From positions 1-36,518 of IMG/VR virus record IMGVR_UViG_3300032323_002742: 36,518 bases of DNA. One strand, written 5' to 3'. The notes below the pieces were generated by a model. It ran no database searches. It saw only the letters and a program-made list of their open reading frames with translations, and was not told the origin of the DNA. How positions within the stretch are numbered: the stretch's first letter is position 1; the number at the start of each line of letters is the position of its first letter. The position numbers were made by a program, and so were the translations under genes. This stretch comes from a virus. This document shows, piece by piece, positions 5,721 to 35,884 of this stretch.

Positions 5721-6041
5721 ATGGCCACAGTAGCAGAACGAATCAGTGTAGTGGAAGTACAGGTCGCTAACCTTGACGAAAAATTAGATGACATCAAAGT
5801 AGATGTGAAAGAAATGCACGACTGCTTAGATCGCACGGGCGAAACCATAGCTAAAACACTAGCAGACATGAGAGAAGAATCCAGCAATCAGCATAATCAA
5901 TTAGCTGGAAAAATTGTTGAATTAGAAAAATCCAAACAGAAATTAATGATGTACGGTATGGTAGGAATGGCATTTATAGCAGGTCTTGGTTGGACCGGAC
6001 AACTTAATATACAAACAATTACCAAGTTCTTCGGTGTATAA
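5721..6041 (+). CDS. Coiled-coil protein with C-terminal membrane segment
   Basis: 106 residues. Positions 1-75 are a continuous heptad-type coiled coil (MATVAERISVVEVQVANLDE onward), and 78-95 form one hydrophobic segment (MYGMVGMAFIAGLGW). This layout is like the XhlA/holin-associated family of phage proteins, where a coiled coil is anchored in the membrane, but the match is by architecture only. It could help the lysis pathway or organise the inner membrane late in infection. The AAAAGGAAAC site supports the start. Confidence 0.55.
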   Translation: MATVAERISVVEVQVANLDEKLDDIKVDVKEMHDCLDRTGETIAKTLADMREESSNQHNQLAGKIVELEKSKQKLMMYGMVGMAFIAGLGWTGQLNIQTITKFFGV

Positions 6042-19096: not shown

Positions 19097-19300
19097 ATGG
19101 CAACAGGTAAAGTAAAATGGTTTAATGACACTAAGGGTTTCGGTTTCATTACTCCTGATGGCGGTGGTGAGGATTTGTTTGCTCACTATTCACAGATACA
19201 AGCAGGCGGATTCAAGTCTTTGAAAGAAGGTCAAGATGTACGCTTCGATGTAACTCAAGGACAGAAAGGCAAGCAGGCTAGTAACATTCAGCCAGCTTAA
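19097..19300 (+). CDS. csp: Cold-shock protein (CspA family)
   Basis: Sixty-seven residues, the usual length. RNP1-type [11 protein letters not shown] and RNP2-type DLFAHYSQI motifs are present after GKVKWFND, so it is a single-strand nucleic-acid binding RNA chaperone. The ATG at 19097 with AAAGGA is the true start; an upstream in-frame ATG at 19016 would only add non-homologous residues from the leader. The leader is long and can fold over the ribosome site. It lies directly upstream of the tmRNA acceptor piece. Confidence 0.95.
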
Positions 19301-19311
19301 AGAATTGTTGT

Positions 19312-19367
19312 AGAAGTCTTAAAGTAAGGCATTCTGGACGCGGGTTCGACTCCCGCCAGGTCCACCA
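19312..19367 (+). ncRNA. ssrA: tmRNA acceptor piece
   Basis: T-arm GCGGG-TTCGACT-CCCGC (19340-19356) followed by CAGGTCC and ACCA. The same T-arm style occurs in bacterial tmRNAs. The 5' boundary is set by guess; no separate promoter is seen between csp and this piece, so it may be read with csp. An AAGGCAT before the T-arm is complementary to ATGCCTT near the end of the coding piece. Confidence 0.85.
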
Positions 19368-19379
19368 TAAGGAAGTTTA

Positions 19380-19559
19380 ATGAAGATTGATATCACAGCG
19401 GAACATGAAGGCGTAACAAAAACAATTTGTACCTACGAATTTGAACCAATCGTTGGACAAAGTGAAGATGTTACTACCCAAGTGCTTGATGCGATTAACT
19501 CTAACATAAGTTTTTTTATGATGGGCCTGCCATGGTTTCGACAGGGTGAGATAGGATAA
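19380..19559 (+). CDS. Small ORF in the tmRNA intervening segment (59 aa)
   Basis: An ATG at 19380 with AAGGAAG 5 bases upstream opens a 59-residue frame, MKIDITAEHEGVTKTICTYE onward, which looks protein-like up to about residue 47. The last dozen residues (GLPWFRQGEIG) are encoded by the first bases of the tmRNA coding piece, so the frame runs into the RNA gene. No family is recognised. If the precursor is transcribed through, the ORF would be excised between the two pieces. It may be a real small gene or a chance frame. Confidence 0.45.
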   Translation: MKIDITAEHEGVTKTICTYEFEPIVGQSEDVTTQVLDAINSNISFFMMGLPWFRQGEIG

Positions 19560-19680
19560 AGATCAACACGTGGGGTCACGTAAAATACAAAAAACGTAAA
19601 TGCAAACGCAAATACAAACGAGGCATACGCTCTAGCAGCTTAACCTCCGAGGCAACTATGCCTTGTCATCCAAACTAGTT
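19523..19680 (+). ncRNA. ssrA: tmRNA coding piece with proteolysis tag
   Basis: Starts GGGCCTG, continues with the tRNA-like D-loop block CATGGTTTCGACAGGG, then CACGTGGGGTCACGTAA with possible pseudoknot pairing, then the tag frame GCA AAC GCA AAT ACA AAC GAG and so on to TAA (19641-19643). After the tag, GGCAACTATGCC can form a hairpin. A terminator follows at 19682. The end of the mature piece is an estimate. Confidence 0.88.
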
Positions 19681-19681
19681 G

Positions 19682-19707
19682 AAAAAGGCTACTTCGGTAG
19701 CTTTTTT
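19682..19707 (+). terminator. Intrinsic terminator after tmRNA
   Basis: GCTAC-TTCG-GTAGC stem with UUCG loop, flanked by A's and followed by six T's. Confidence 0.9.
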
Positions 19708-19756
19708 CTTTAATACCTTTTAATGATTTTCGCTATGTTTTTCTTGGGTGATCTGT

Positions 19757-19764
19757 GGTATAAT
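19757..19764 (+). promoter_or_regulatory. Promoter (extended -10) for pqqA
   Basis: TGG-TATAAT: a perfect -10 (19759-19764) with the TGn extension at 19756-19758. The -35 region at the right distance (TGTTTT) is poor. It gives a leader of about 50 bases to the PqqA ATG. Confidence 0.6.
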
Positions 19765-19823
19765 GTTTATAAGTACTAGTGCAATACAACAAGTACTTAA
19801 ATTTGTTAACAAGGAGAACTACT

Positions 19824-19895
19824 ATGTGGACAACACCTCAAGCAACAGAAATGCGCTATGGTTTCGAAATCACAATGTACGTGATGAATCGATAA
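19824..19895 (+). CDS. pqqA: PqqA, PQQ precursor peptide
   Basis: A 23-residue ORF with AAGGAG 7 bases before the ATG. It starts MWTTPQATEMRYGFE and ends ITMYVMNR, closely matching the PqqA family pattern MWTKPxxTDLRxGFEVTMYxxNR. Crucially, E15 and Y19 keep the E-x3-Y spacing; these are the two side chains joined and cut out to make pyrroloquinoline quinone in hosts with PqqBCDE. It stands alone between a promoter and a terminator; no other pqq gene is in the window. A phage-borne PqqA would depend on the host's PQQ enzymes. A longer upstream frame from 19748 is not needed. Confidence 0.9.
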   Translation: MWTTPQATEMRYGFEITMYVMNR

Positions 19896-19941
19896 GTGAA
19901 ATGACACGTCTTTTGGAAACAGGAGACTGCTATTAAGACTT

Positions 19942-19963
19942 AGCCCACTTCGGTGGGCTTTTT
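19942..19963 (+). terminator. Intrinsic terminator after pqqA
   Basis: AGCCCAC-TTCG-GTGGGCT plus T's, the same hairpin type as at 4641. It ends the pqqA transcript; the next promoter begins 1 base later. Confidence 0.9.
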
Positions 19964-19964
19964 C

Positions 19965-19992
19965 TTGACTTTTCCTGCATAGATGCTATACT
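19965..19992 (+). promoter_or_regulatory. sigma70-type promoter
   Basis: TTGACT (19965-19970), 16-base spacer, TATACT (19987-19992); drives the gene at 20024. Confidence 0.65.
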
Positions 19993-20023: not shown

Positions 20024-20398
20024 TTGAGTATGCATTTGGAAGGTCCGTGGTTATCTACCACAGGCAAGAAAAAAGGTAAAAAGAAATTTGCGTCAGCCGA
20101 ACATGCACGTAAAGCACGTGAGCAGGCCGAAGCATGGCAAGAGCTTCTTAAGCGACACGCTGTCACCCCGTCAAGGAAATCAACCAAAACAATTGTATTA
20201 CCAACAGAAACTCCTGCTTATCGCAGAGAGACTCCGTATATCGCTAGTCTTCCGTTTACTGCTGGTCCTTGTTTGAAATCCCCGGATAAAGTCTATACTG
20301 GTACAATGATCAAAGGTATTGGCACTATGCATAAATCAAATGCGGTTCCAATTTTTAGCAATCAAGAAGCGGAAGATATTGCCAAAATGAGGCGATAA
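20024..20398 (+). CDS. Basic phage protein (124 aa), TTG start
   Basis: 124 residues from a TTG at 20024 placed 7 bases after GGAG; an ATG at 20030 is 13 bases away and less likely. It begins MSMHLEGPWLSTTGKKKGKK and has a strongly basic N-terminus, then a short coiled coil (AEHARKAREQAEAWQELLKR) and a Pro/Thr-rich middle. I recognise the overall style from marine phage genomes but know no function. Single gene with promoter and terminator of its own. Confidence 0.7.
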   Translation: MSMHLEGPWLSTTGKKKGKKKFASAEHARKAREQAEAWQELLKRHAVTPSRKSTKTIVLPTETPAYRRETPYIASLPFTAGPCLKSPDKVYTGTMIKGIGTMHKSNAVPIFSNQEAEDIAKMRR

Positions 20399-26835: not shown

Positions 26836-28707
26836 ATGAGTAAAATTATCGGTATCGATCTAGGTACCACAAATTCATGCGTAGCCGTTATTGAAAACGG
26901 TGTTTCTAAAGTAATTGAAAATTCTGAAGGAGCACGTACTACCCCTAGTATTGTTGCTTACACCCAAGATGAAATTCTAGTAGGTGCTTCAGCAAAACGC
27001 CAGTCAGTAACAAATCCCAAAAATACTATCTATGCCAGCAAGCGATTAATTGGTCGCAAGTTCAAAGAGGAAGCTGTACAAAAAGATATCAAATTGATGC
27101 CATATGAAATTATGGAATCTAAAAATGGAGATGCTTGGGTAAGAGCCCAAGGTAAAGAATTAGCACCTCCACAAATTTCCGCAGAAGTACTTCGCAAAAT
27201 GAAGAAGACTGCTGAAGACTATCTTGGTCACGAAGTAACACAAGCGGTAATTACTGTACCTGCTTACTTCAATGACAGCCAACGGCAGGCAACCAAAGAT
27301 GCGGGACAGATCGCAGGCCTAGAAGTGTTGCGTATTATCAACGAGCCTACAGCGGCAGCACTGGCATATGGTGTTGATAAGGCTGATAAGAAAGATCGCA
27401 AAGTTGCTGTCTATGACTTAGGTGGTGGTACATTTGACGTATCAATCATCGAGATTGCCAATGTAGATGGCGACAAACAAATTGAAGTATTATCGACAAA
27501 CGGTGATACATTCCTGGGCGGTGAAGACTTTGACCAACGCATCATGGATCATTTAGTTGATGAGTTTAAGAAAGAAAATGGAATCGATCTTAAGAACGAT
27601 GTGTTGGCATTACAACGTTTGAAAGATGCTGCTGAAAAAGCCAAAATTGAATTATCAAATTCTACACAAACAGAAGTAAATCTACCATATGTTACCGCTG
27701 ATGCTAGTGGTCCTAAACACTTGGTTGTTAAATTAACTCGTGCTAAACTTGAATCGTTAGTAGATGAATTAATTCAACGTTCAATCGAGCCTTGTAAAAT
27801 TGCTATGAAAGACGCAGGAGTAACTGCCGCAGACATTGACGAAGTTATCTTAGTTGGTGGGCAAACACGTATGCCTAAAGTACAAGAAGCAGTTGAAAAG
27901 ATGTTTGGCAAAGCACCTCGAAGAGATGTGAATCCGGATGAAGCTGTTGCTGTTGGTGCCGCAGTTCAAGGTGCTGTGCTAGGTGGTGATCGTAATGACG
28001 TTCTATTGTTAGACGTTTCTCCGTTGAGTCTTGGTATTGAAACAATGGGCGGAGTATTTGCTAAACTAATTCAAAAGAATACAACAATCCCAACTAAGGC
28101 ATCACAGACATTCTCAACAGCAGAAGATAATCAACCAGCTGTAACAATCAAAGTGTTCCAAGGCGAGCGTGAATTTTGCCAATACAATAAATTACTAGGT
28201 GAGTTTAATTTAGAAGGCATTGCTCCGGCTCGCCGAGGCATTCCACAGATTGAAGTTACCTTTGACGTAGATGCTAACGGCATTATGAATATTAGTGCTA
28301 AAGATAAATCTACAGGCAAAGAAAACAAAATCACTATCAAGTCAGACAGCGGGTTAAGCAAAGAGCAAATTGAACAAATGATTCAAGATGCCGAAGTCAA
28401 TGCCGAAGCTGATAAAAAACTACGTGAATTAGTTGAAGCACGTAACTCAGCAGAGTCACAGATACATGCTGCTCGTTCGGACATGAAAGAAGTTGAAGAT
28501 CAATTGTCTGATGAAGAAAAAACAAAAATCAATGAAGCAATTTCTGCGTTAGAAGAAGCAGCTAAAGGTGATGACAAAGAAGCTATCACTCAAAAGGCCA
28601 GTGACTTATATACTGCGATTGTTCCGATTGCTCAGGCAAAGAATAAACCAGAACAAGCATCCGCAGAACCAGAAATCATTGATGCTGAATTCAAAGAACA
28701 GAATTGA
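26836..28707 (+). CDS. dnaK: Hsp70 chaperone DnaK
   Basis: 623 residues, slightly shorter than E. coli DnaK. The ATPase domain has [42 protein letters not shown] and [13 protein letters not shown]; the linker is [12 protein letters not shown]; the peptide-binding domain and lid follow, ending [12 protein letters not shown]. All key motifs are intact. The sequence [15 protein letters not shown] has a beta/gammaproteobacterial look. [18 protein letters not shown] departs from the usual EREMAADNKSLG. It has no co-chaperone gene in the window, so host DnaJ/GrpE would be used. Full-length DnaK is rare in phages. Confidence 0.97.
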
Positions 28708-28732
28708 CACAGACACAGAAATACGTTAAAAT
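28704..28732 (+). promoter_or_regulatory. sigma70-type promoter for hsp20
   Basis: TTGACA (28704-28709), 17-base spacer, TAAAAT (28727-28732). The TTGACA overlaps the dnaK stop. The transcript starts next to a TGCGG/CCGCA hairpin (28740-28762) with inner CTCA/TGAG. Confidence 0.7.
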
Positions 28733-28792
28733 AAATTTATGCGGTGCTCAGGTGAGGCCGCAATAAATCTTGCTTATTAAGGAGAAATTAAA

Positions 28793-29230
28793 ATGACACA
28801 AATGCAACGTTTTGACACCACTGCTCTAGCTAGAGCACTTGTAGGATTTGATCGCATGTTCGACGACATGGAACATAGATTTGCGAATCAAATCAACAAC
28901 AACTATCCACCGCACAACATTATCAAAACTGGTGATAACGATTACCTTATTGAAGTTGCTGTGGCTGGATTTTCTAAGAATGAAATTGCTGTAGAGTTAG
29001 AAGACAATCATCTTACCATTAGAGGCGAAAGTCGAACTACATCATGGCCTACTGAGGCATACTTACATCGAGGTCTTGCTAGTCGAGATTTTGCTAAAGT
29101 ATTCCCCTTAGCAGAACATATCAAAGTAAAAGGTGCTCAGATCGAAAACGGTATTTTAACAGTGATGTTAGAGCGTATCGTTCCAGAAGAGCTCAAACCT
29201 AGAGTAATCGAGGTTGTTGAGGTTAAGTAA
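28793..29230 (+). CDS. hsp20: Small heat-shock protein (Hsp20/IbpA type)
   Basis: 145 residues. The alpha-crystallin domain covers about 40-135: YPPHNIIKTGDNDYLIEVAV, NHLTIRGESR and the closing IENGILTVML. The C-terminus has PRVIEV, an I-x-V type tail. It holds unfolded proteins for DnaK. Hsp20 is common in T4-like marine phages. AAGGAG precedes the ATG. It lies between dnaK and clpS, with its own promoter. Confidence 0.95.
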   Translation: MTQMQRFDTTALARALVGFDRMFDDMEHRFANQINNNYPPHNIIKTGDNDYLIEVAVAGFSKNEIAVELEDNHLTIRGESRTTSWPTEAYLHRGLASRDFAKVFPLAEHIKVKGAQIENGILTVMLERIVPEELKPRVIEVVEVK

Positions 29231-29243
29231 TAGTATAAACCCG

Positions 29244-29262
29244 GGGGAGGCAACTCCCCTTT
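29244..29262 (+). terminator. GC-rich hairpin between hsp20 and clpS
   Basis: GGGGAG-GCAA-CTCCCC followed by TTT: a strong 6-bp hairpin with a GNRA-like loop. The short T tail suggests attenuation or partial termination rather than a full stop; the clpS ribosome site GGAG follows. Confidence 0.5.
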
Positions 29263-29274
29263 ATGGAGCATAAA

Positions 29275-29577
29275 ATGAGTACAGCAGATGTTAAGATTGA
29301 CGAAAAAGTTAAAGTAAATTTAGAGCCGCCAAAGATGTGGAAAGTGGTTCTACTAAATGATGATCACACACCAATGGAATTTGTCATTGAGCTGCTAACT
29401 GCTGTTTTCAGACATGAAGAAAAAGCAGCCCGAGATATTACTTTAGAAATTCACGAAACTGGTTCAGCTATTGCTGGAATTTATAGTTTTGAAATTGCCG
29501 AACAAAAAGGTGTCGAAAGCACTACATTGGCTCGAGAGCATGGATTTCCGTTACAAGTACAAGTAGAAGAAGAATAA
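29275..29577 (+). CDS. clpS: ClpS protease adaptor
   Basis: One hundred residues from the ATG at 29275, 6 bases after GGAG; a frame opening at 29263 would place that site inside the gene. LLNDDHTPMEFV (26-37) and EIHETG (H60) form the pocket for N-terminal residues, and the acidic N-terminal arm contacts ClpA. It directs N-end-rule substrates to host ClpAP and blocks tagged substrates of ClpAP. Together with tmRNA it gives the phage two hands on host proteolysis. Confidence 0.92.
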   Translation: MSTADVKIDEKVKVNLEPPKMWKVVLLNDDHTPMEFVIELLTAVFRHEEKAARDITLEIHETGSAIAGIYSFEIAEQKGVESTTLAREHGFPLQVQVEEE

Positions 29578-29578
29578 A

Positions 29579-29601
29579 CAACCGCCCTAGGGCGGTTTTT
29601 T
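29579..29601 (+). terminator. Intrinsic terminator after clpS
   Basis: ACCGCCCTAGGGCGGT palindrome (29581-29596) plus T's ends the chaperone block. Confidence 0.85.
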
Positions 29602-29633
29602 AATCACAAATGCAAACAACAATAAAATTAATA

Positions 29634-29641
29634 CGTAAATA
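29634..29641 (+). promoter_or_regulatory. Possible late promoter (CGTAAATA)
   Basis: CGTAAATAT, a weaker match to the late octamer; initiation near 29647 leaves 12 bases with AGGAG before the ATG at 29659. Confidence 0.35.
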
Positions 29642-29658
29642 TCTCACAGGAGATTAAA

Positions 29659-30231
29659 ATGAGCTTACGAGATTTAACTAAAGAAAAACACCACGATGCT
29701 GAACGAACTGAATTTGCTAAGACGTTGCTCAGTGGAAATATTACTAAAGAACAGTATTCCTGTTACCTGACACAGATGTTGGCAATATATGCTGTACTAG
29801 AACATCAAGCAGCATCACACGGACTATTTGACGAACTGCATGGCCTAGCAAGATGTAGAGCCATTTTTGATGATCTTAACGAATTAGCCGGTGGCGTAAA
29901 TTATGCTATTCTGCCATCTACTAGAAATTATGTAGAATATCTAGAACAGTTAGATGATGCTAATCGAATCATGGCGCATCTGTATGTACGTCATATGGGC
30001 GATTTGTTTGGCGGCCAAATGATTGCCAAGCGTGTGCCAGGTAGTGGGAAATTCTATCAGTTTAACAACGAAGAACAATTAAAATCAACTATCCGTTCTA
30101 AGATAGATGATTCTATGGGTGACGAAGCCAATGTGGCATTTGAACACGCTATTGCTATTATGAAGGATCTAAATGAGTCAAGTCTGGAACACGTTGATAC
30201 AAATTCAGCAATGCTTCGAGCAGAAGTTTAA
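29659..30231 (+). CDS. ho1: Heme oxygenase
   Basis: 190 residues. H11 in KHHDAE is the axial heme ligand expected in the HxxAE pattern, and YVRHMGDLFGGQ (109-120) is the distal helix signature (HVRYLGDLSGGQ in others). It opens heme to biliverdin, CO and iron using ferredoxin electrons. AGGAG before the ATG. Its 3' end overlaps the bilin reductase by 59 bases in another frame, so the two are co-translated and the biliverdin is passed on. Confidence 0.93.
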   Translation: MSLRDLTKEKHHDAERTEFAKTLLSGNITKEQYSCYLTQMLAIYAVLEHQAASHGLFDELHGLARCRAIFDDLNELAGGVNYAILPSTRNYVEYLEQLDDANRIMAHLYVRHMGDLFGGQMIAKRVPGSGKFYQFNNEEQLKSTIRSKIDDSMGDEANVAFEHAIAIMKDLNESSLEHVDTNSAMLRAEV

Positions 30232-32419: not shown

Positions 32420-32872
32420 ATGAAATATCTAAGATTGGCAATTTTCGTTGGCATTACCGCCATAACGAACACTTCTTTTGCCACAGAACTAGTACATCAA
32501 TTCCAAAGCCCTGCCTTTATACCAGGCAACGGCTTTTCTTCTCACGTCTTATCTATTCATCAGTTAGAAGAAGCTAAAAAGAAAGAAATCAAGTCAGAAG
32601 AACTTGCAGCTATAGCCAAAGCAGAAACTGCCGCTAAGAGCACAAACTTGGCAAAATTCCTAGTGAACGTAGAAGCAAGAATATATGCTCAGTTATCTAA
32701 ACAGCTAGCAGATCAGATGTTTTCTGAAACTAGTGGTGATAGTGGATCTATGAACTTTCAGGGAACTAACATCAGTTGGGTTAAATCTAGTTCGGACGTA
32801 ACCTTAACTATTATCGAAGCCAACGGTGGCCGCACAGAAATTACTGTACCTATAGCGAGCTTTGCATTTTAA
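32420..32872 (+). CDS. csgF: CsgF-like curli assembly protein
   Basis: 150 residues with a signal peptide cut near residue 21 (NTSFA-TELV). The mature N-terminus TELVHQFQSPAFIPGNGF matches CsgF (MTFQFRNPNFGGNPNNG), the part that inserts in the CsgG pore; the C-terminus SSSDVTLTIIEANGGRTEIT fits the CsgF end. In between is a helix with Lys/Ala repeats that is longer than in E. coli. It should sit at the outer face of the outer membrane. GGGAGCGAGTG precedes the ATG; its stop overlaps csgG. Confidence 0.8.
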   Translation: MKYLRLAIFVGITAITNTSFATELVHQFQSPAFIPGNGFSSHVLSIHQLEEAKKKEIKSEELAAIAKAETAAKSTNLAKFLVNVEARIYAQLSKQLADQMFSETSGDSGSMNFQGTNISWVKSSSDVTLTIIEANGGRTEITVPIASFAF

Positions 32873-34089
32873 TGAATCGTTTTTTATTAATATTAATGGT
32901 ATTCGTGCTCTCAGGATGCGCCCATATACATATGGAAGGGGCCAAGGAAGAACCAGTAGCATTAAAACCAAAAGAAAGTCTAATCGAAAAACTTCCTGAT
33001 CTCGACGGTCCTCCAATCACGATAGCAGTGTATGGTTTCACTGACAAGACTGGACAAATGAAACCTAATGATAGATTGGCTGTATTTTCAAAAGCAGTAA
33101 CACAGGGTGCTGAAGTGTTTTTAATTAAATCACTGCAGGACTCAAAGAATTGGTTTAAAGTAGTTGAACGTGTTGGCTTAGACAATCTAATCAAAGAACG
33201 TCAGTTGATACGCAACCAACGTGAAGTATATGAAGGTAAAGATGCAAAGCCATTGAGACCCATGACTGTAGCAGGTGTTATGATTGAAGGTGGCATCATC
33301 GGCTATGATAGTAATATTAGAAGTGGTGGTAACGGTGCTCGTTTCTTAGGCATCGGTGGAAGCCAACAATATCGTGTAGATGAAATTGTTATATCTATGA
33401 GATTGGTCAGTATCAACAGCGGAGAAGTACTAATAACTAATGCTGTTAGTAAAACAATCTATAGCACACAACACAACGTGGGTGTTTTACGATTCGTTGA
33501 TGCTGGAACCAAAGCATTAGAATTAGAAAATGGCATGGCTTTAAATGAGCCTACTACTTATGCTGTTCGTATCGCAATCGAACAAGCAGTTTATGATATG
33601 ATTGTTGAGGGTGAAAAGAAAGGCATGTGGAGATACAAGAAACCTGCGTCGGCGGCTCGGCCAGAAGAAGTCAAAGTAGAGGAGAAAAAAGATGTCGTGG
33701 TTCAACCACAAACCTCACAAACACCCCAAAGAGCTCCAGAGCCCGTATCGGTCACACCGATCGAGCCCAACAACGGAAAAAATATTGAAACAAACAAAAT
33801 TGAAAGTAAAACAACTGAGCAGAGGCAAGAAGCAGAGGCAAACTTAAAACCGATAATATCAAATCCAGAATTAAAATCAAATGTAAATTTATTCGGTTAC
33901 AGGTACTTAGGTCTAGACACGTTTGTTTATAAAGACGCAAGCGAAAAAAGCCAACGTACTTGGTTGTTAAAAAGAGGAACAAGGATGACCATTCTAAGTC
34001 CTGGACCAGAAGGATGGCATTTTGTAAAAGACGACGAGAATCGTAAAGGGTATGTGAAATCCAACGTGCTTTTGGACCACAAACCATAA
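32872..34089 (+). CDS. csgG: CsgG-like outer-membrane secretion pore with SH3-type tail
   Basis: 405 residues with lipoprotein signal and lipobox LSGC at 13-16. Residues 45-255 match CsgG: ITIAVYGFTDKTGQ, WFKVVERVGLDNLIKERQLI, GVMIEGGIIGYDSNIRSGG and the following GGSQQYRVDEIVISMRLVS. CsgG forms a nonameric peptide pore. A Pro/Glu/Lys-rich linker (260-330) leads to a C-terminal SH3-like domain (YLGLDTFVYKDAS, WHFVKDDENRKGYVKSNVLL), which E. coli CsgG lacks and which may bind peptidoglycan. Coupled to csgF by one base. Confidence 0.88.
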   Translation: MNRFLLILMVFVLSGCAHIHMEGAKEEPVALKPKESLIEKLPDLDGPPITIAVYGFTDKTGQMKPNDRLAVFSKAVTQGAEVFLIKSLQDSKNWFKVVERVGLDNLIKERQLIRNQREVYEGKDAKPLRPMTVAGVMIEGGIIGYDSNIRSGGNGARFLGIGGSQQYRVDEIVISMRLVSINSGEVLITNAVSKTIYSTQHNVGVLRFVDAGTKALELENGMALNEPTTYAVRIAIEQAVYDMIVEGEKKGMWRYKKPASAARPEEVKVEEKKDVVVQPQTSQTPQRAPEPVSVTPIEPNNGKNIETNKIESKTTEQRQEAEANLKPIISNPELKSNVNLFGYRYLGLDTFVYKDASEKSQRTWLLKRGTRMTILSPGPEGWHFVKDDENRKGYVKSNVLLDHKP

Positions 34090-34170
34090 TGAGACAAGCA
34101 TAGGAGAAATTTTTACAAAACTAAAATATGGATGCACTAATAAACATAACTTGCATCTGGAGCGATTAAA

Positions 34171-34845
34171 ATGAAAAAACGAATCAAAGGCGGTGGCGGG
34201 TTGTCGAGAAAATTACTCGCAATTCTAATGACATCTGGGATGATGTCGTCGGGAGCATTGGCCAACGATGTTTATGTAGAACAAATTGGTGATAATACAT
34301 CAGTTTCTATTACACAAACAGGCGCTGGAAACTTGGTTAATGGAAACGTTGGAGGCACTGGGTCAAATGACGATGCTGCTATAATTCGTGGTGACCTCAA
34401 TAACGTAACCATTAGTCAGATTGGTGCTAGTAATACCATTAGCATGATTATCAATAACGAAACCAGCGGTACTGGTTCAACTGTGGTAGTGTCGGCGGAC
34501 GGTAGCAATAACAATCAAACTATCGGTTGTGGAACAGCATTAAGTTCAACTTGTAACGCTAGCATTATTAGATCAGAAATTTCAGGTAATAACAACAATA
34601 CAGTACAGACGTTGAGTGGTGGTGTTGTTCAAAGTAAAATTGCCATTAATGGAAACTATAATAACGTAACGCACATAGCATCAGGTGCCGGGGCGCATAA
34701 TGGTGAAATTACAGTTTCAGGTAGCGGTACTTCTGGATCGCCAACTGGGATAACATTAACACAGAGTGGAGCATCAGCTAAAAATGCAGTTATCACTAGC
34801 AACGGTTCTAGCAATACTATTTCTGTTACTCAGTCCGATCAATAA
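34171..34845 (+). CDS. Curlin-repeat protein (CsgA/CsgB-like)
   Basis: 224 residues with a signal peptide cut near residue 31 (SSGALA-ND). The mature part has Gln/Asn/Ser-rich repeats such as VEQIGDNTSVSITQTGAGN and ISQIGASNTIS, then NNNTVQTLSGG, fitting the SxxxxQxGxxNxxxxxQ curlin pattern, though degenerate in the middle. It would be the substrate secreted by CsgG and form amyloid-like fibres. CTGGAGCGATT before the ATG. The last 62 bases overlap the FecR gene in another frame. Confidence 0.85.
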   Translation: MKKRIKGGGGLSRKLLAILMTSGMMSSGALANDVYVEQIGDNTSVSITQTGAGNLVNGNVGGTGSNDDAAIIRGDLNNVTISQIGASNTISMIINNETSGTGSTVVVSADGSNNNQTIGCGTALSSTCNASIIRSEISGNNNNTVQTLSGGVVQSKIAINGNYNNVTHIASGAGAHNGEITVSGSGTSGSPTGITLTQSGASAKNAVITSNGSSNTISVTQSDQ

Positions 34846-35884
34846 CAGCTATGCCGGCATTGGCAAAGTTACAGAACAGACTGGTCCTACAGAAATAATA
34901 AGGAATAAAAAAAGTATTCCTTCGAGCTTGAACACGGGCGTAGAAATGAACGATGCAATCACTACGGCTAAAGCTAAAGCAACACTGACATTTGAAGATT
35001 CAACTACGGTTAAGATCACAGAACAAAGCAAGTTAATCATAGATGATTTTGTCTATGATCCGAAGAAAGGTTCGGGTAAATTGGCCTTAAACATGGCGCT
35101 GGGAACAGCTCGTTATGCTAGTGGGCAGATTGCTAAAAACAATCCCCAGCAGGTAGCGATTAAGACACCGACTGCTAGTATTGCCGTGCGTGGTACAGAC
35201 TTTTCAATGACAGTAGATGAGTTAGGAAGAAGCTTAATCATGCTTCTTCCTAGTTGCGATAACAAAGGTTGTGTCACAGGAGCTATCGAGGTTAGTAATC
35301 TAGCCGGGGTGGTTTTACTCGATGTACCATATCAGGCTACATTAGTAAATTCTCAAAACACTCCACCAAGTACTCCTACTGTAATAAAGATCGATCAGGC
35401 CAATATCAACAATATGTTGATTATCAGCAAGCCTCCGGAAGTTACCGATGACAGCAAGGCAGGAGTGAATAAAGATAAAAATGTTTTAGATTTTAATGAG
35501 TTAGATGTTGATCTATTAAAATACGCAGCATTAGACGAAAATAAATTAGAAGACAATCGAGCATTAGATAGAAATGATTTGAACACAGACCTTTTAGCAT
35601 TCAACGAATTAAATGAATTAGATAGACAAAACGCTAGTCTATTAAGTAATGAATTAGATAATCCTATACTTCCAGGATATTCAGCAAATAAATCTTTAGG
35701 CTTATTGTATTACTTTAATGATGATCAAACTAAAGTAACATTATATAAATCAGGCACACATAATGCGACAGCAACATTTGATACAACTAAAAATGTAACA
35801 TATACATTAAACCAAAATGGGCAGACTATTATTCAAAATGTGAATAAAGGCTCAACTAGTACAGTGACTATCAATCAGAATTAA
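34784..35884 (+). CDS. Secreted FecR-domain protein
   Basis: 366 residues from the ATG at 34784, which lies within the curlin gene; a GTG at 34766 is possible. Signal peptide to about residue 24 (NNSYA-GIGKV). Residues 25-180 are a FecR domain: GKVTEQTGPTEI, NDAITTAKAKATLTFEDST, and the following PTASIAVRGTDFSM. FecR folds often sit beside surface adhesins. The middle (about 225-295) is rich in Leu/Asp/Asn repeats (ELDVDLLKYAALDENKLED). The C-terminus is Thr/Asn-rich. It probably helps the curli-type assembly; role unproven. Confidence 0.75.
   Translation: MQLSLATVLAILFLLLSPINNSYAGIGKVTEQTGPTEIIRNKKSIPSSLNTGVEMNDAITTAKAKATLTFEDSTTVKITEQSKLIIDDFVYDPKKGSGKLALNMALGTARYASGQIAKNNPQQVAIKTPTASIAVRGTDFSMTVDELGRSLIMLLPSCDNKGCVTGAIEVSNLAGVVLLDVPYQATLVNSQNTPPSTPTVIKIDQANINNMLIISKPPEVTDDSKAGVNKDKNVLDFNELDVDLLKYAALDENKLEDNRALDRNDLNTDLLAFNELNELDRQNASLLSNELDNPILPGYSANKSLGLLYYFNDDQTKVTLYKSGTHNATATFDTTKNVTYTLNQNGQTIIQNVNKGSTSTVTINQN

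Follow-up and report, generated by a model that had tools for sequence, protein, structure and literature searches.

A solitary pqqA gene carried by phages of methylotrophs and its putative role in supplying the host PQQ pathway

Does a 23-residue open reading frame in an environmental viral genome encode a genuine precursor of the cofactor PQQ and, if so, what might a phage gain from carrying it? The window, by which we mean the whole 36,518-nt stretch analysed (IMG/VR record IMGVR_UViG_3300032323_002742), encodes T4-like and structural functions, among them a virion structural protein, an exonuclease, a class I ribonucleotide reductase and an endolysin, which bears out the claim of the initial annotation that the gene is phage-borne. 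The ORF and its downstream neighbour are:

19824-19895, + strand: pqqA, translated as MWTTPQATEMRYGFEITMYVMNR (then stop), the 23-aa PQQ precursor, in which E15 and Y19 are the residues to be cross-linked
20024-20398, + strand: phrog_27048 gene, function unknown, downstream neighbour of pqqA

The ORF is a real pqqA. The initial annotation had called the peptide PqqA and proposed a PqqA profile search as a test; the peptide passed, with 35.3 bits against PF08042 (cut-off 21.1) and 33.9 bits against the equivalog model TIGR02107 (cut-off 20). Searching the whole 36.5-kb record in six frames gave PqqA an E-value of 3.9e-9, and hence the ORF is not a product of chance, a reading also ruled out by the profile scores and the codon-position pattern given below. 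It retains the Glu-x3-Tyr pair (E15, Y19) that becomes PQQ, as well as W2, P5, R11, G13 and the length of ~22-25 aa seen in PqqA. A PDB sequence search with the window peptide gave no match; being a 23-aa substrate peptide, it is presumably disordered.

Phage pqqA is clearly under purifying selection. An initial pN/pS of 0.20 was dropped as biased, since the IMG/VR search pattern had fixed residues 11-19, and was replaced by values from a set of 80 IMG/VR relatives of phrog_27048 collected independently of pqqA. In 25 of these 80, pqqA lies just upstream (within ~2.6 kb) on the same strand. In this synteny set, pN/pS of pqqA was 0.168 in frame versus 0.98 and 2.14 in the shifted frames, values that disfavour an overlapping 62-aa GTG ORF (19748-19936) in another frame. 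Mean pairwise identity was 0.915, 0.897 and 0.690 at codon positions 1, 2 and 3, respectively, 0.70 in the RBS region and ~0.31 in the flanks. E15 and Y19 occur in 25/25 synteny-set peptides, which were found via the neighbour gene with no residue-fixing pattern, and in all seven cultured-phage PqqA sequences examined. In the pattern-derived set, residues 2-10, lying outside the search pattern, gave a weaker but still purifying pN/pS of 0.47. Conservation in related phages, which the initial annotation had also set as a test, is therefore observed; for translation, its third test, the coding constraint gives indirect support. Among 31 longer contigs without pqqA near phrog_27048, five have it elsewhere and none was seen in 26; within the broader lineage of the window, pqqA is thus retained in some phages, relocated in others and lost from still others, the pattern expected if it tracks the host.

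The sequences flanking the gene have the anatomy of a small expression cassette:

19722-19741, + strand: upstream box AATGATTTTCGCTATGTTTT, probable part of the pqqA promoter, matched exactly nowhere else in the window
19756-19764, + strand: extended -10 TGGTATAAT, TATAAT at 19759-19764, predicted transcription start at ~19771
19770-19799, + strand: 5'-UTR hairpin, stem UAAGUACU/AGUACUUA, lying between -10 and RBS, at the predicted mRNA 5' end or close to it
19811-19816, + strand: RBS AAGGAG, 7 nt before the ATG
19942-19964, + strand: intrinsic terminator, stem AGCCCACTTCGGTGGGCT at 19942-19959, with 7-bp stem, UUCG loop and U-rich tail, ending the predicted pqqA transcript
19965-19992, + strand: promoter-like sequence TTGACT-16-TATACT of the downstream gene, abutting the pqqA terminator

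The initial annotation had given the ORF its own promoter, ribosome site and terminator. The last two stood: GGAG precedes the ATG in 76/78 unique window-type upstreams, and the terminator fold (-13.9 kcal/mol, z -4.2) has a counterpart within 120 nt of pqqA in 17/19 unique synteny relatives versus none in shuffles. The promoter fared less simply, since a generic sigma-70 promoter scan called none at the window pqqA, and the evidence for a probable one is comparative, from conserved boxes recurring upstream of pqqA in related phages. An AATGAT-A/T-TTC box is present in 39/78 unique window-type phage upstreams and recurs in the synteny set, and a -10-like hexamer at the expected interval is found in 35/78; elsewhere in the window, the upstream box has a single other site, with 3 mismatches (0 at 19722-19741). 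The 5'-UTR hairpin is the centroid fold, unexceptional in the single window sequence (z -0.88). Across 31 relatives, however, two of its pairs changed on both sides (CG to AU and AU to GC), giving 12 double-changed cells versus 2.4 in shuffles, a count reached in 0/500 shuffles, although few evolutionary events may lie behind this signal. Because the hairpin loop varies in length, an RNA element is favoured over the operator of a dimeric protein. 5'-terminal stem-loops stabilise bacterial mRNAs, and by analogy the hairpin suggests a stable, abundant pqqA transcript. Between pqqA and the terminator there is also an 11-codon ORF, MTRLLETGDCY (19904-19939), near-identical to one in a relative locus, L290 (MRRLLETGDCY, near 5888), whose pqqA has diverged.

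We then asked which cultured phages carry the gene. Two tblastn queries over 50,697 phage records, the window peptide and, independently, the divergent Klebsiella PqqA, returned the identical 12 records. Nine come from Methylophilales phages (P19250A, MEP301, Venkman, MEP401, MEP402 and four Melnitz), and one is a phage from Manatee Spring (spring water) whose TerL is 74% identical to that of Venkman. The two remaining, 'Acinetobacter phage MD-2021a' (CAKLQF020000010.1 and CAKLQH020000055.1), were rejected as bacterial contigs mislabelled as phage; the one of them examined contains fur, ppk and pqqABCDE and by appearance is host contamination. The Methylophilales phages with pqqA belong to at least three unrelated lineages: Melnitz (Kyanoviridae), MEP401/402 (Zobellviridae) and Venkman/P19250A. 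Their closest TerL relatives, SAR11 phages (~50% identity) and Vibrio phages (~55%), are absent from the PqqA matches. Among phages of known host in this collection, pqqA is therefore confined to those of Methylophilales. pqqA is not peculiar to the window phage, being present in every matched cultured Methylophilales phage record; NCBI taxonomy lists further Methylophilales phages, among them MEP431-434, HIM624-A and MG-MtP1. At these matches pqqA is nowhere annotated, the deposited features being none or a 'hypothetical protein', and in Melnitz the CDS deposited at the site is on the opposite strand. In P19250A the unannotated gene is at 28085-28153 of KX815270. The isolate papers of Melnitz, MEP301, Venkman and MEP401/402 do not mention phage pqqA. 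Profile searches of six whole records of the phage collection placed pqqA among phage genes. Contigs with related terminases vary in this respect: 5/7 Venkman-type contigs of at least 18 kb and 3/20 MEP401-type TerL contigs have pqqA, these being fragments whose hosts may differ.

The gene is also widespread in environmental virus contigs. Degenerate-codon DNA patterns matched at least 120 IMG/VR contigs, with 82 further ones of other PqqA types and 106 further ones of the window type, or at least ~308 pqqA-bearing contigs in all, which are not 308 species given that IMG/VR is not dereplicated. The largest records that carry it measure 356 kb and 372 kb. Each of 50 larger records (chosen for having pqqA) had a single pqqA above the PF08042 cut-off, and pqqE over cut-off was found in 0/50 of them. 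PqqB, C, D or E was encoded at 0/387 viral loci versus 21-32/120 host pqqA loci, and reading the window ORFs by eye revealed no homologue of PqqBCDE, in agreement with the absence of pqqBCDE reported earlier for this DNA. A pqqA gene is commonly linked to pqqBCDE but need not be, and here the hosts supply them. The six whole-record checks and the 0/387 loci with pqqB-E exclude prophage or host contamination of the viral contigs. Methanol dehydrogenase was rejected as the usual partner of phage pqqA, since it was present in only one record across two partly overlapping sets of 50 larger pqqA-bearing records (0 in the second set). That record, IMGVR_UViG_3300025120_009955 (72 kb), has methanol dehydrogenase at 34049-35731 and pqqA at 41887-41943, like Baikal VP_266. 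Matches to pmoC, which would link to methane oxidation, numbered 0/50 in pqqA-bearing records, and no control gave a match either. Some viral contigs encode PqqA types without the EMR core, such as MKWETPTYVDLRFGFEVTMYIYNR and MWKKPEFVDLRLGLEVTLYISNR, which suggests that pqqA is also present in phages infecting other PQQ producers.

As for the host of the window phage, a freshwater bacterium, the peptide core E-M-R-F/Y-G-F-E-V/I-T-M-Y is found mainly in Methylophilaceae (GTDB genomes). Because of this and because every phage match with a named host is from Methylophilales, a methylotroph of the Methylophilaceae is very probably the host, in line with the hint of a methylotroph or other PQQ-making host in the initial annotation. 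All 80 sampled Methylophilaceae genomes have pqqA, with 1-12 copies (mean 4.5, median 4) and two or more in 77, and pqqE over cut-off is present in 79/80, nearly always as one copy. Such hosts can thus finish the pathway and amplify only the precursor; multi-copy pqqA with single-copy pqqBCDE was noted earlier (PMC4109929), and strong expression of two out of five pqqA copies is described in one methylotroph that overproduces PQQ (PMC9851590). Hosts thus multiply just the consumed component, and this is all of the pathway that the phages carry. Host Methylophilaceae pqqA (PMC4109929; PMC9851590) has the same peptide core as the phage gene and, at many copies (99/127), an RBS and terminator. 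The phage copies differ in lying among phage genes and never with pqqB-E, and those of the window lineage also in having a phage-type upstream region, the UTR hairpin and a peptide with Y12 and a C-terminal MNR. This variant accounts for 22/115 viral EMR-type peptides, whereas in hosts Y12 occurs in 2/128 and the MNR ending in 0/128. Being nearly absent from hosts, it indicates that evolution of the gene within phages probably goes back some time. Four 63-nt sequences are exactly common to viral contigs or phages and hosts.

From these data we consider it likely that phage pqqA is a solitary expression cassette, one that supplies precursor to host PqqD/PqqE and so maintains the charging of PQQ-dependent methanol dehydrogenase. 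The gene has the attributes by which an auxiliary metabolic gene (AMG) is recognised, namely viral genome context, a host homologue with the rest of the pathway in the host, and purifying selection; its expression and timing, its processing by the host and the benefit to the phage are what we infer. A short mRNA would be made from the phage promoter, with the hairpin near its 5' end and the intrinsic terminator at its 3' end, and the strong RBS would direct translation of the 23-aa PqqA. Host PqqD and PqqE would join E15 and Y19 by a cross-link, after which PqqB, PqqC and a protease, likewise from the host, would complete PQQ. Because one PqqA is destroyed per PQQ and the enzymes are reused, PqqA is the sole pathway part needing continual resynthesis, and would be the part lost first once the phage takes over host transcription. 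Its supply may then leave the PQQ-dependent (XoxF-type) methanol dehydrogenase charged in infected Methylophilaceae, so that energy and formaldehyde supply could continue during infection.

Cyanophage psbA is a phage AMG that replaces a fast-turnover host component. Phage pqqA would resemble it in that only the quickly used-up component of a large host machine is carried, but the psbA product is a protein subunit subject to damage, whereas PqqA is a peptide substrate consumed one-for-one for a cofactor.

Other functions for the locus were weighed against this supply of precursor. Phage PqqA, or some form of it, might instead act as a decoy or inhibitor, tying up PqqD/PqqE so that host PQQ and methanol oxidation are lowered or retuned. 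The Y12/MNR variant, almost never seen in hosts, would fit a gene that is not simply a host copy, but a decoy would have no need to keep both cross-linking residues, and these are present in every synteny-set and cultured-phage peptide inspected, which makes this reading improbable. A top-up of PQQ meant for a different PQQ enzyme, or for a host outside Methylophilaceae, is slightly less probable still: non-EMR PqqA types on 86 IMG/VR contigs mean that phages of other PQQ producers may have the gene, yet the EMRYGFE type of the window fits the Methylophilaceae-type signature and the named hosts of all matched phages are Methylophilales.

We give even less weight to the idea that pqqA is a passenger, a scrap of host DNA carried with no selected function. 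A gene so short and so often multi-copy in hosts is easily acquired, and the 63-nt sequences common to both sides would accord with this. Against it, however, selection is purifying in frame and neutral-like in shifted frames, the RBS, UTR hairpin and terminator are conserved, the gene is retained across unrelated lineages, and pqqB-E never accompany it in the viral loci despite their linkage at some host loci. Least probable of all is a small RNA whose reading frame is incidental. The predicted transcript is indeed short, with hairpins at both ends, of which the 5' one covaries, but substitutions concentrate at third codon positions, the shifted frames look neutral, and Rfam has no match near gathering score at the pqqA locus.

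The supply of PqqA to host enzymes thus remains our preferred reading, and several points count against it. With at least two pqqA in 77/80 hosts, the value of one more is not obvious; dehydrogenase-bound PQQ may outlast infection; and pqqA is missing in 26 of the 31 longer contigs of the broader lineage that have none near phrog_27048, and in most MEP401-type contigs, absences that contig fragmentation and other hosts may explain. Moreover, partial-operon overexpression in other bacteria raises PQQ modestly (+29% with pqqAB; PMC7936290). On balance, we lean towards the broader proposition that infected methylotrophs are generally limited by their supply of PqqA, so that unrelated Methylophilaceae phages would gain and retain a solitary pqqA with strong expression, in some cases phage-adapted (Y12/MNR), since nothing else in the PQQ pathway is consumed. 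Methylophilaceae rank among the major oxidisers of methanol in lakes and coastal seas, where, if this is true, infection may sustain methanol oxidation.

The initial annotation knew of no well-described phage pqqA, but that of Lake Baikal phage VP_266 has been reported as an AMG (Coutinho et al. 2020, PMC7678222), and viral pqqA, together with pqqE and pqqD, is listed in PMC13188868. VP_266 is similar in having a PqqA precursor on a T4-like contig, a predicted Methylophilaceae host and a proposed PQQ-boosting role (PMC7678222), but its pqqA occurs with a methanol dehydrogenase gene, an association seen here in just the one record mentioned above. The same study states that P19250A has none of its AMGs, which the pqqA at 28085-28153 of KX815270 corrects. 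Melnitz, Venkman, MEP301, MEP401/402 and P19250A are alike in having a solitary pqqA at the DNA level, although none is annotated so. In the literature searched, which included few subscription papers or preprints, the presence of pqqA throughout the matched cultured methylophage genomes, P19250A among them, its solitary occurrence in ~300 contigs, the coding constraint, the cassette anatomy and the dosage argument appear unreported. Among phages of methylotrophs, pqqA is a candidate for a near-core metabolic gene, and it offers a simple system for asking whether a host pathway can be sustained by its consumable substrate alone. It is too small for routine annotation, and such blindness to short ORFs hides phage metabolic genes.

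Other genes of the window also merit mention. It encodes a DUF6267 protein with relatives in cyanophages, pelagimyophages and Melnitz and, from Pfam matches within 26836-30231 and 32420-35884, CsgF, CsgG, a curlin-repeat protein and a FecR-domain protein; Melnitz likewise has csgF/csgG but lacks csgA. DnaK-, Hsp20-, ClpS- and heme-oxygenase-like genes were recognised by eye from translations in the same two intervals. Directly upstream of the pqqA cassette, as a neighbour outside pqqA function, is:

19265-19734, + strand: permuted (two-piece) tmRNA, betaproteobacterial type

The window tmRNA (19265-19709) scored 117 bits with the beta_tmRNA model. Ten Methylophilaceae genomes gave no beta_tmRNA match over cut-off (best 32.8 bits), and hence the phage tmRNA looks unlike the host type. 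In the phrog_27048 set, whose loci are partly redundant, permuted tmRNA genes were found in 18/25 pqqA-bearing loci versus 3/55 others. Many permuted tmRNAs have unusually long tags of 26-31 aa by ARAGORN prediction only, such as ANADTFDFTAMSFTGNTVRGAANESKFALAA, as if an extra conserved block (~F-D-F-x-A-x-S-F-T-G-N-T/S-V) stood ahead of a normal tag; the tag predicted for the tmRNA of the window itself is ANANTNEAYALAA.
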